NCBI GenBank assembly: GCA_009917405.1
Contig: QZED01000006.1
Span: 1-56,546 of the forward strand
Length of the DNA: 56,546 bases
DNA from: a bacterium c-19
GTDB lineage: Bacteria; Bacillota_I; Bacilli_A; Erysipelotrichales; Erysipelotrichaceae
Reading direction: 5' to 3'
Positions 2,808 to 5,778 of this stretch are shown in pieces. Position 1 is the first letter of the stretch. Each line of letters opens with the position of its first letter. A program made the translations under genes and the position numbers. The notes under the pieces were generated by a model that worked only from the letters and a program-made list of their open reading frames with translations, did no database searches and had not been told where the DNA came from.

Positions 2808-2848
2808 AATACTACTTAGGGTTAGGAAATATATCCGGAGGTATGAGC

Positions 2849-3412
2849 ATGAACTATAATGATGACAGAGAATATTACAATCGCAATCAGGGCTTTAACA
2901 ATCCAAACGAGCGCATGCGCAATGTTGTGAACAATGAGCAGCGCCGTTATGAACCGCAGATGAGCCAGCAGGAAGCATCGGAACCTACAGTAATCGGAAA
3001 AGGGGCAAGAATTGTCGGTACTGTGGAAGTAGCCGGCGATTTGGTAATACAGGGTGAAGTACAGGGTGATATTACTTGTCAAAATAAAATCAAGGTTACG
3101 GGCGTTGTGGACGGAAACATCACAACTTGTGACGTGGATTTAGATAATGCGATTGTTACAGGCGATATTAATTGTACAGGCGATCTGCACTTAAGTGTCA
3201 GCGCAACGGTAGCGGGTAACTGTGAAGCGATGAATGTTGTCTGCGGCGGTAGAATTAAAGGTGATGTGAACGCTGCGGAATCGGCGACATTTGAAGATAA
3301 AGCAGCTTTGGTCGGCAATTTGACTGCACGTGATATTGAAATTCAAAAGGGCGCGGTTCTACAAGGAAGTGTCAATATCCGTCAAGATGTTTATTTTGAT
3401 ACCGAGCATTAA
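2849..3412 (+). CDS. Bactofilin-family cytoskeletal protein
   Basis: 187 residues. After a polar, Asn/Glu-rich tail of about 45 residues, a bactofilin (DUF583) core runs from TVIGKGARIVGTV to GSVNIRQD. It shows the expected right-handed beta-helix rhythm of short strands with Gly-Asp/Gly-Asn turns (VQGDITC, VDGNITT, VTGDINC, IKGDVNA). Bactofilins polymerise without nucleotide into membrane-associated filaments that place cell-wall or envelope enzymes. The start is ATG 2849 because GGAGG (2837-2841) is 7 bases ahead; an in-frame ATG at 2843 touches the SD. No M23 peptidase, the common bactofilin partner, is adjacent. Confidence 0.88.
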   Translation: MNYNDDREYYNRNQGFNNPNERMRNVVNNEQRRYEPQMSQQEASEPTVIGKGARIVGTVEVAGDLVIQGEVQGDITCQNKIKVTGVVDGNITTCDVDLDNAIVTGDINCTGDLHLSVSATVAGNCEAMNVVCGGRIKGDVNAAESATFEDKAALVGNLTARDIEIQKGAVLQGSVNIRQDVYFDTEH

Positions 3413-3431: not shown

Positions 3432-3475
3432 AAAAACAAGAATTTTGTCTGATAGGCGAATTTCTTGTTTTTTAG
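3432..3475 (+). terminator. Terminator of the bactofilin gene
   Basis: Arms aaaaacaagaa (3432-3442) and ttcttgttttt (3462-3472) pair with the U-tract continuing to 3473. It faces the terminator of the minus-strand small-RNA candidate that begins about 14 bases further on. Confidence 0.75.
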
Positions 3476-3488
3476 TTATATCGGATAA

Positions 3489-3602
3489 TAAAAGAAAAGC
3501 CGCAGGGGGTTATGCGGCCTTTCTTTGTGGGAGCTGTTAAATGGCTTCAATAAGTAAAAATAGGTTTAGGGATAGGGATAATGAATCATACCATTTAACA
3601 AC
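3489..3602 (-). ncRNA. Candidate small structured RNA with a C-rich loop (unrecognised family)
   Basis: About 114 nt on the minus strand, in a 530-base gap without any gene. It starts 6-7 bases after a good promoter (3609-3637). It then forms a perfect 10-bp closing stem: TGTTAAATGG (complement of 3591-3600) with CCATTTAACA (complement of 3535-3544). The enclosed loop contains the C-rich segment ATCCCTATCCCTAAACC. It ends in the GC-rich hairpin GCCGCA-loop-TGCGGC (3499-3518) followed by TTTTCTTTT, a textbook intrinsic terminator. The loop could pair with G-rich Shine-Dalgarno sequences. It does not look like tmRNA, 4.5S, 6S or RNase P RNA. Expression is not shown by sequence alone. Confidence 0.6.
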
Positions 3603-3608
3603 ATCTAT

Positions 3609-3637
3609 ATTTTAACTGCTTTCCGTAAAAAAAGCAA
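3609..3637 (-). promoter_or_regulatory. Promoter of the small-RNA candidate
   Basis: On the minus strand TTGCTT (complement of 3632-3637), 17-base spacer, TAAAAT (complement of 3609-3614). The expected start near 3602 falls just before the closing stem of the RNA. Confidence 0.55.
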
Positions 3638-3856
3638 GTACTTTTTTTAATTTTGAAAATAAATTTATTCATATTTTGAAAAATCGCAGATATAAATGAT
3701 ACGGAAGCTGTTTTTAAGATAAATATACAAGCGTTTGGTTACTTATATCTACAATCAGCAATAAAAAACTTGGTGCATAGAAAAAGTATCTGTTTTATTA
3801 AAGGGAATGTGTAAAATTATGGTATTTATAAAAAGCTCTTGAAGATGTTTTCTAAC

Positions 3857-3909
3857 AGGTATATGATATACCTTGATACTTTCATCGTAGATTTATCAGA
3901 TGAAAGTAT
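3857..3909 (+). promoter_or_regulatory. Two adjacent inverted repeats in the ftsH leader
   Basis: AGGTATAT-G-ATATACCT (3857-3873) is a perfect 8+1+8 palindrome. Three bases later ATACTTTCATC (3876-3886) and GATGAAAGTAT (3899-3909) form a perfect 11-bp dyad with a 12-base loop, ending 33 bases before the ftsH ATG. They could be an operator for a dimeric regulator or an mRNA hairpin pair controlling ftsH. The sequence is not the CIRCE element. Confidence 0.55.
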
Positions 3910-3942
3910 ATAGTAAATAAAACAAGAAAGGATTGTGAATCC

Positions 3943-5778
3943 ATGAATAAAAAGAAAAAACCACTGTACTATTATTATTTTATTATAATGATAGTACTGA
4001 TCTTATTAAACAGCTTCTTCTCGGGATTTTTATATCATTCACGTCAACAGGAAGTGAGCTATAATGAATTCCAAACGGCGCTGAAAGAAAATAAGATTGA
4101 TGAAGTACAAATAGAAAATGAGACTATTACTTACACGTTGAAAAATGATGAAAAACAGCTTCGTTATTATACGGGGAACATGCAGGATCCGAGTTTAACA
4201 GAACAGTTGATAGAGGCAAAAGCGAAGTTTCAGCGTATTTATCCGCAAGAGATCAATCCGTTTTTCAGTGCATTGATTACCTTTTTATTGCCACTGTTAT
4301 TTTTGTGGGGATTAGGTAATTTTATGTTCAAGCGCATTCAAAAGAAACTGGGGAATGACGGGATGACCTTTGGAACAGGCGGTGGCTTGGGAAGTTTCGG
4401 CAAGGCGAATGCGCAAGTTTATGTGGAAGCCCAGAGTGGAAAGCGGTTTTCTGATGTTGCGGGGCAGGATGAAGCGAAAGAAGCGCTGTTGGAGATGGTG
4501 GATTTTTTAAAAAATCCTAAAAAATATGAAAAAATAGGAGCGCAGATGCCAAAGGGAGCGCTTTTGGTCGGTCCCCCGGGAACCGGAAAAACATTGTTGG
4601 CAAAAGCGGTTGCCGGAGAGGCAGGAGTACCATTCTTTTCCATTTCCGGTTCGGAGTTTGTGGAAATGTTCGTTGGTCGCGGTGCGGCAAGAGTGCGTGA
4701 TTTATTTAAACAGGCACGCGAAAAAGCACCTTGTATCGTTTTTATTGATGAAATTGACACAATCGGTAAAAAGCGTGATGGTGGCGGATTCAGCGGGAAC
4801 GATGAACGAGAACAGACGTTGAATCAGCTGTTGGCAGAAATGGATGGGTTTGACGGATCGAAAGGTGTGGTACTGTTAGCCGCTACCAATCGCCCGGAAT
4901 CATTAGATGCGGCATTGTTGAGACCGGGACGATTTGATCGTCGTATCCCGGTAGAACTGCCAGATCTGAAGGGGCGAGAAGCGATTTTACACGTACACGC
5001 AAAAGATGTTAAAATCGGCACAAATATTGATTTCAATGCGGTAGCGCGGGCAACAGCCGGCGCAAGCGGAGCTGAATTGGCAAACATCGTAAATGAAGCG
5101 GCATTGTTGGCAGTAAAGGATGATCGTTCGGTAGTGTCACAAAGTGATTTTGATGAAGCGGTGGAGACTGTAATTGCCGGTTATCAGCGAAAAGGTGCCG
5201 TAATTTCTACGAAAGAGAAGCTGATTGTATCCTATCATGAAATCGGTCATGCATTAGTGGCGGCGAAACTGAAAAATACCGCTCCAGTTCATAAAATAAC
5301 GATCATTCCGAGAACCTCGGGAGCACTCGGCTATACGATGCAGGTAGAGGAACAAGAAAGCAATTTAATGTCAAAGGACGAGGCGTTTGAACGTATTGTG
5401 ACCTATTGCGGCGGTCGCGCGGCAGAGGAGTTGATCTTCCACAGCATCACAAGCGGAGCAGCTAATGATATTGAACAGGCAACTAAAATCGCTCGTGCGA
5501 TGATTACAAGACTGGGTATGAGTGATGAATTCGGAATGGTTGCGTTAGAAACACTGAATAATCAATATTTAGGGCAGGATACTTCTTTGATGTGTTCTTC
5601 CGATACAGCGGCTAAGGTTGATAATGCGATGATGCGCTTGATCAAGGAAGCACATGAAAAAGCATATACGATTTTGCAGGAAAATAAAGACAAGCTGCAT
5701 GAACTTGCCAAGTATCTGTATGAACAAGAAACGATTACCGGTGAGGAATTTATGAAGGTGCTGAGCGCCGAAGCATAA
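3943..5778 (+). CDS. ftsH: ATP-dependent zinc metalloprotease FtsH
   Basis: 611 residues, membrane-bound AAA+ protease that degrades misfolded membrane and regulatory proteins. A first transmembrane helix lies near residues 9-28, then an extracytoplasmic domain, a second helix near 105-128, and the AAA module. That module has Walker A GPPGTGKT (210-217), Walker B VFIDEID with D269-E270, and the second-region-of-homology arginines (RPGRFDRR). The peptidase has HEIGH at 432-436, against the usual HEAGH, and the third zinc ligand Asp in AANDIEQAT. The tail is short and lacks the long acidic end of some homologues. AAAGGA precedes the ATG by 10 bases. It stands alone, with a palindromic leader and its own terminator. 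It is not next to tilS/hpt, its usual Bacillota neighbours. Confidence 0.96.
   Translation: MNKKKKPLYYYYFIIMIVLILLNSFFSGFLYHSRQQEVSYNEFQTALKENKIDEVQIENETITYTLKNDEKQLRYYTGNMQDPSLTEQLIEAKAKFQRIYPQEINPFFSALITFLLPLLFLWGLGNFMFKRIQKKLGNDGMTFGTGGGLGSFGKANAQVYVEAQSGKRFSDVAGQDEAKEALLEMVDFLKNPKKYEKIGAQMPKGALLVGPPGTGKTLLAKAVAGEAGVPFFSISGSEFVEMFVGRGAARVRDLFKQAREKAPCIVFIDEIDTIGKKRDGGGFSGNDEREQTLNQLLAEMDGFDGSKGVVLLAATNRPESLDAALLRPGRFDRRIPVELPDLKGREAILHVHAKDVKIGTNIDFNAVARATAGASGAELANIVNEAALLAVKDDRSVVSQSDFDEAVETVIAGYQRKGAVISTKEKLIVSYHEIGHALVAAKLKNTAPVHKITIIPRTSGALGYTMQVEEQESNLMSKDEAFERIVTYCGGRAAEELIFHSITSGAANDIEQATKIARAMITRLGMSDEFGMVALETLNNQYLGQDTSLMCSSDTAAKVDNAMMRLIKEAHEKAYTILQENKDKLHELAKYLYEQETITGEEFMKVLSAEA

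Follow-up and report, generated by a model that had tools for sequence, protein, structure and literature searches.

A candidate small regulatory RNA gene with C-rich loops, divergent from ftsH, in a genus of Erysipelotrichaceae

Layout of the locus upstream of ftsH

The DNA analysed here (the window) comprises 56,546 nucleotides of contig QZED01000006.1 from the draft genome of bacterium c-19, a gut member of the Erysipelotrichaceae (assembly GCA_009917405.1, G000 below). Between the bactofilin gene and ftsH, the minus strand carries a complete set of elements of a short transcription unit that diverges from ftsH, its promoter and the start codon of ftsH being about 330 nt apart. All features are collated in Table 1. 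The initial annotation, made from the letters of the window, had described the promoter TTGCTT-N17-TAAAAT in the proper order on the minus strand, a perfect 10-bp closing stem, a 46-base loop with two CCCT repeats, a GC-rich intrinsic terminator with a U-tract and a bactofilin terminator facing it; each of these elements is present.

Table 1. Features of the predicted small RNA gene and its neighbours (window coordinates).
Feature	Position	Strand	Basis and remarks
-35 element TTGCTT	3632..3637	-	read directly; 3/6 of consensus TTGACA; same in G050
-10 element TAAAAT	3609..3614	-	read directly; 5/6 of consensus, spacer 17; same in G050
Predicted sRNA transcript, about 114 nt	3490..3604	-	start inferred from -10, end from terminator
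Closing stem, 5' arm TGTTAAATGG	3591..3600	-	fold
Closing stem, 3' arm CCATTTAACA	3535..3544	-	fold
46-nt loop, UCCC at 3578-3575 and 3572-3569	3545..3590	-	unpaired probability 0.98-0.99
Linker UCCC between the two hairpins	3529..3532	-	unpaired probability 0.70; UCCA in G050
Intrinsic terminator stem-loop, CCCCC in loop at 3509-3505	3496..3526	-	fold; loop CCCC unpaired probability 1.0
U-rich tail of terminator	3490..3498	-	read directly
Terminator of bactofilin gene, facing the sRNA terminator	3436..3473	+	read directly
Bactofilin gene, neighbour	2843..3412	+	PF04519, E 2.6e-22
ftsH, neighbour divergent to the sRNA	3943..5778	+	PF01434, PF00004, PF06480

The promoter (3637-3609) scores 8/12 and is not listed by the promoter scan because its -35 box matches at only three of six positions. 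The closing stem TGTTAAATGG/CCATTTAACA consists of ten Watson-Crick pairs (13 pairs if the adjoining G-U and C-G pairs are included) and frames the loop, in which UCCCU occurs twice. The linker GCUCCCACAA joins it to the terminator (AAAGAAAGGCCGCA-TAACCCCC-TGCGGCUUUUCUUU in full), the core of which, GCCGCA-TAACCCCC-TGCGGC, lies at 3518-3499 and runs into a T-rich tail. The predicted fold of the whole RNA has an energy of -36.8 kcal/mol, compared with -14.9 ± 2.9 kcal/mol for shuffles (z = -7.6), and z is -4.3 when the terminator is left off. The UCCC/CCCC patches are predicted to be unpaired with probabilities of 0.70-1.0. At least three TCCC per 108 nt are found in 0.28% of windows of that length, and six CCC in 0.04%.

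The layout was searched for on both strands under the following conditions: a promoter of at least 8/12, an 8-bp stem starting 3-12 nt after the -10 element and a terminator within 80 nt. The sole match in the window is the unit at 3637-3490, under criteria that were chosen after the site had been seen (the limit for the -35 element was set to 3/6, since a limit of at least 4/6 missed the site itself); the same criteria gave 0 matches on either strand of 20 dinucleotide-shuffled versions of the window. A search against Rfam, which the initial annotation had proposed, gave no match at the site, either at gathering thresholds or at a permissive E ≤ 5, so the RNA matches no curated Rfam family. 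One full copy of the unit is present in G000. The minus-strand segment 3604-3490 is read here as a probable free-standing small regulatory RNA gene with its own intrinsic terminator, divergent from ftsH; the presence of an sRNA gene, of whatever kind, is very probable.

Further observations were made in the ftsH region. A perfect 15-bp palindrome, GGTATATGATATACC, at 3858-3872 overlaps the -10 element of the promoter presumed for ftsH (TTGAAG-N17-TATGAT, 3839-3867), and its conservation extends to three congeneric genomes (G050, G111 and G132); it is likely to be the operator for a regulator of ftsH. Upstream of this promoter, the block GGGAATGTGTAAAATTATGGTATTTAT at 3803-3829 is nearly unchanged in four congeners, and a sequence like it, AAATTATGTGGAATTATGG, stands before ftsH at L082, L087 and L089, which belong to other genera of the family. 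In other genera (L081, L082, L087, L089), an inverted repeat resembling the HrcA/CIRCE operator (AGCACTC...AAAGTGCTAA) lies directly upstream of ftsH; the genus of the window has no such repeat at this place, and the heat-shock control of ftsH may possibly have changed in it. Next to the ATG, GGATTGTGAATCC at 3930-3942 folds into a 5-bp hairpin that covers the Shine-Dalgarno sequence of ftsH; it is present in G050 and absent in G111 and G132. Elsewhere, the minus strand of the window carries at 252-1798 a pair of neighbouring genes of similar layout that encode small secreted lipoproteins (264 and 241 aa) and perhaps arose by duplication.

Counterparts in congeneric genomes

Seven genomes of the genus, all Erysipelotrichaceae, were compared. 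G050 carries a 91% identical copy of the unit in the same place, with the promoter intact and the stem and the C run of the terminator loop kept. Both UCCC of the main loop are retained despite the insertion of 3 nt between them, and the loop-closing pair is changed from U-G to C-G. The linker UCCC reads UCCA in G050 and is hence unconserved, and between the window and G050 the RNA is only mildly more conserved than its flanks.

In G111 and G132 an RNA of divergent sequence lies between the same neighbours, at the same spot and on the same strand: TTGATT-N17-TATAAT, followed by TGTCAATGG...CCATTGACG and a terminator. BLAST detected no similarity between its body and that of the window RNA. Between G111 and G132, about 3 of 120 positions differ from the -10 element to the terminator (about 98% identical; sliding identity 95-100%), and identity drops to 35-80% on either side. 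This conservation island bears the signature of a functional RNA, because the short frames within it are not common to the other type. The terminator stems of the window and of G111/G132 align flush and gapless inside the stem, with GAAAGGCC/GGCUUUUC identical, and two inner pairs are swapped in a compensatory manner (G-C to C-G and C-G to G-C). This pattern, drawn from four sequences of two types, was also reached by 18 of 500 shuffles; as modest statistical evidence, the match of the stems supports common descent of the two types. The part of the G111/G132 RNA before the terminator folds no better than shuffles (z = -0.6 and -1.0). As a separate observation on these two RNAs (L040/L041), two mutually exclusive hairpins of 9-10 bp can be drawn, TGTCAATGG/CCATTGACG and ATTTCCACCT/AGGTGGAAAT; the latter covers most of the anti-Shine-Dalgarno motif CACCTCC, and the RNA could therefore be bistable.

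G146 stands further apart within the genus (69% identity of FtsH across the N-terminal 131 residues) and is the fifth species with a unit upstream of ftsH and divergent from it. Its promoter reads TTGATA-N17-TACAAT; the closing stem TGTCGATG/CATCGACA is supplemented by an inner 7-bp stem with the loop UUUCUUCCCCCACCCAAUU (UCUUCCCCCACCC), the z value of the fold is about -6, and seven U follow straight after the closing stem, so that the hairpin is itself the terminator. The 5' arms of the closing stems are TGTTAAATGG in the window, TGTCAATGG in G111/G132 and TGTCGATG in G146. In a simple simulation, for which the stems had been picked post hoc by the analyst, the chance of such likeness among three sequences was about 4e-5. 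Because the compared stems were chosen in this way, shared ancestry is a less certain reading for the G146 unit than for those of G111/G132.

The two remaining genomes are uninformative: only about 140 nt lie upstream of ftsH in G086, and ftsH is at a contig end in G159. A search of both for a relocated unit with the pattern TGTCRATG-N-CATYGAC gave a few isolated matches, none of which was recognised as a unit. Each of the five species that have the unit has it linked to ftsH. Searches beyond the genus found no homologue, and a search of viral contigs for FtsH gave no match. Other genera gave short matches at L010 (G120, 24/25 identical), L109 (G091) and L028-L030; these were in the wrong context, limited to the promoter, or coding, and were rejected as chance. 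The synteny, the G111/G132 island and the compensatory changes in the terminator, together with the lack of an Rfam match, lend good support to the claim of the initial annotation that the region holds a small RNA gene not recognised before; of the outcomes named there as refuting it, a lack of conservation of stem and terminator in relatives did not occur.

Mode of action and candidate targets

Layout, fold, synteny and selective constraint are observed; we infer transcription, pairing with mRNAs and repression. The 5' end of the sRNA would be locked in the 13-bp stem that presents the C-rich, G-poor loop of 46 nt; the unpaired UCCC/CCCC patches of loop, linker and terminator loop would contact mRNAs at their G-rich Shine-Dalgarno regions, the closing stem might then open and lengthen the sRNA-mRNA duplex, and translation of the target would be blocked through occlusion of the Shine-Dalgarno sequence. 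Such trans action, as the initial annotation had suggested, is plausible in view of the analogous LhrC and RsaE, and the locus probably holds an sRNA gene whose product acts on mRNAs in trans.

C-rich or anti-Shine-Dalgarno loops recur in the five species even with differing sequences (UCCCUAUCCC in the window, UCCCUAAAAUCCC in G050, CACCUCC in G111/G132 and CUUCCCCCACCC in G146). The CACCUCC motif, which is the anti-Shine-Dalgarno sequence of 16S rRNA, is partly masked by a competing 10-bp hairpin. The differing loops serve the same chemical end, a C-rich single strand, within one frame. Tentatively, these units may represent one orthologous, ftsH-linked sRNA gene in which the frame (promoter spacing, 5' closing stem and terminator stem) was kept and the target-pairing loop was replaced between congeners. 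If so, the RNA would be a platform of which the targets are re-chosen within a genus.

The target search covered 207 predicted genes, located in the window and in about 215 kb taken from elsewhere in G000. The best duplex (-28.9 kcal/mol), well apart from the rest, was predicted with a gene for a lipoprotein-like protein of 211 aa without a Pfam family (G000:C96:117550); it is interrupted and spans 38 nt of the 46-nt loop over the Shine-Dalgarno sequence and the AUG. This value was matched over the 207 genes by 15 of 600 shuffled loops (p about 0.025). The G050 loop pairs with the same gene at -24.4 kcal/mol; since G000 and G050 do not differ in the target region, it offers no covariation signal. 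The lipoprotein mRNA may be a target and is treated as a lead only. Against ribosome-binding sites as a class, the loop did no better than shuffled loops over the 207 genes; of the target prediction proposed in the initial annotation, one lead was thus obtained and a general preference for Shine-Dalgarno sites was not. A long target of the loop, GGTTTAGGGATAGGGATA, searched with up to three mismatches, was found only at the locus itself in G000 and not at all in G050. Cold-shock genes had been considered as antisense targets, the 3' arm matching a csp start in G081 (L028), and were rejected as the two csp genes of G000 match poorly. Separately, the first 60 coding and 160 upstream bases of the lipoprotein-like gene are identical in G000 and G050 (L138/L139; G050:C1:229187), compared with a difference of about 10% between the two in the bactofilin-ftsH intergenic DNA.

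Action in cis would mean read-through, or a prolonged 3' end, antisense to the bactofilin 3' region, or interference of transcription with the convergent bactofilin gene or the divergent ftsH. The facing terminators, the distance of about 330 nt from the sRNA promoter to the ftsH start codon and the constant linkage to ftsH speak for it; each converging transcript, however, has its own terminator, a different gene lies on the far side of the G146 unit, and action in cis requires no explanation of why the loop is C-rich. We consider it unlikely. An RNA that binds protein, namely a decoy whose pyrimidine-rich loops would capture a translational regulator, would fit loops that vary among congeners with C-richness and framing hairpins maintained, as expected of a protein that reads short C-rich patches, but the neighbourhood suggests no protein partner, and UCCC loops of low-GC Gram-positive bacteria have been shown to bind mRNAs (PMC4132741); its probability is somewhat lower still. 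Similarly improbable is the absence of any RNA gene, with a bidirectional terminator beside a chance hairpin: although the terminator stem functions on both strands (its plus-strand reading was listed by the scan) and the -35 element is weak, the G111/G132 island spans the -10 element, body and terminator, the ftsH locus of G146 has the same layout, and shuffled windows lack it. Least probable is a gene for a very small peptide or leader peptide: a leaderless ATG frame of 25 codons occurs in G111 and G132 with one synonymous difference, but unrelated frames occur in the window (12 codons), in G050 (10 codons, shortened by a 3-nt insertion that brings a new stop) and in G146, no Shine-Dalgarno sequence is found, and no gene follows before the terminator. 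The short frames inside the unit differ by type, so there is no conserved ORF among the window, G050, G111/G132 and G146.

Relation to known small RNAs

Pairing of mRNAs with an sRNA, the preferred reading, has precedents in Gram-positive bacteria. LhrC has three UCCC patches, in loop, linker and terminator loop, each of which binds the lapB mRNA at its G-rich Shine-Dalgarno region; opening of the stem completes the duplex (PMC4132741). The unpaired UCCC motifs in hairpin loops of RsaE and other Rsa RNAs pair with translation initiation sites (PMC3861533). By experiment, the UCCC loops of RsaE, RNAIII and FsrA likewise bind target mRNAs (PMC4132741, PMC3861533), and a C-rich motif of FsrA from Bacillus subtilis is reported, in work cited in PMC4132741, to pair with its targets.

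LhrC (Listeria monocytogenes, RF00616) resembles the window RNA in length (about 111 nt) and in build: a hairpin at the 5' end, a single-stranded linker and a terminator follow one another, and all three contain a C-rich UCCC/CCCC patch. Both RNAs are G-poor, and the closing stem of the window RNA could open on a target as in LhrC-lapB (PMC4132741). The window RNA has UCCC in loop and linker and CCCCC in the terminator loop; the pattern is partial in G111/G132, and the linker patch is gone in G050. LhrC differs in its five copies, compared with a single copy here, in its neighbours and in its host, Listeria having no close kinship. The RF00616 model (gathering threshold 110 bits) gave no match at the site at gathering or at E ≤ 5, and its best matches in G000 (17.5 bits) lie elsewhere. 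In the window, the RNA resembles LhrC in arrangement, yet is not an LhrC member by the Rfam model. RsaE/RoxS (Staphylococcus, Bacillus) has no Rfam match here and shares no sequence beyond the UCCC motif; its fold and length differ as well. FsrA also has a C-rich motif, and here neither an Rfam match nor a sign of iron/Fur control is seen.

A full-text literature search, with most subscription journals outside its scope, found no study devoted to small regulatory RNAs of the Erysipelotrichaceae, a family common in the gut. In common with the UCCC-type RNAs, the unit has its own promoter and intrinsic terminator by sequence pattern and no conserved ORF by comparison, and in the window its UCCC motifs are unpaired in the predicted fold. 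It is fairly filed as a genus-restricted UCCC-type sRNA of Gram-positive bacteria, possibly with an exchanged loop. If this is right, a genus-specific RNA with LhrC-like anatomy would offer a natural series on the turnover of sRNA pairing regions, because the frame is constant and the loop varies between congeners.
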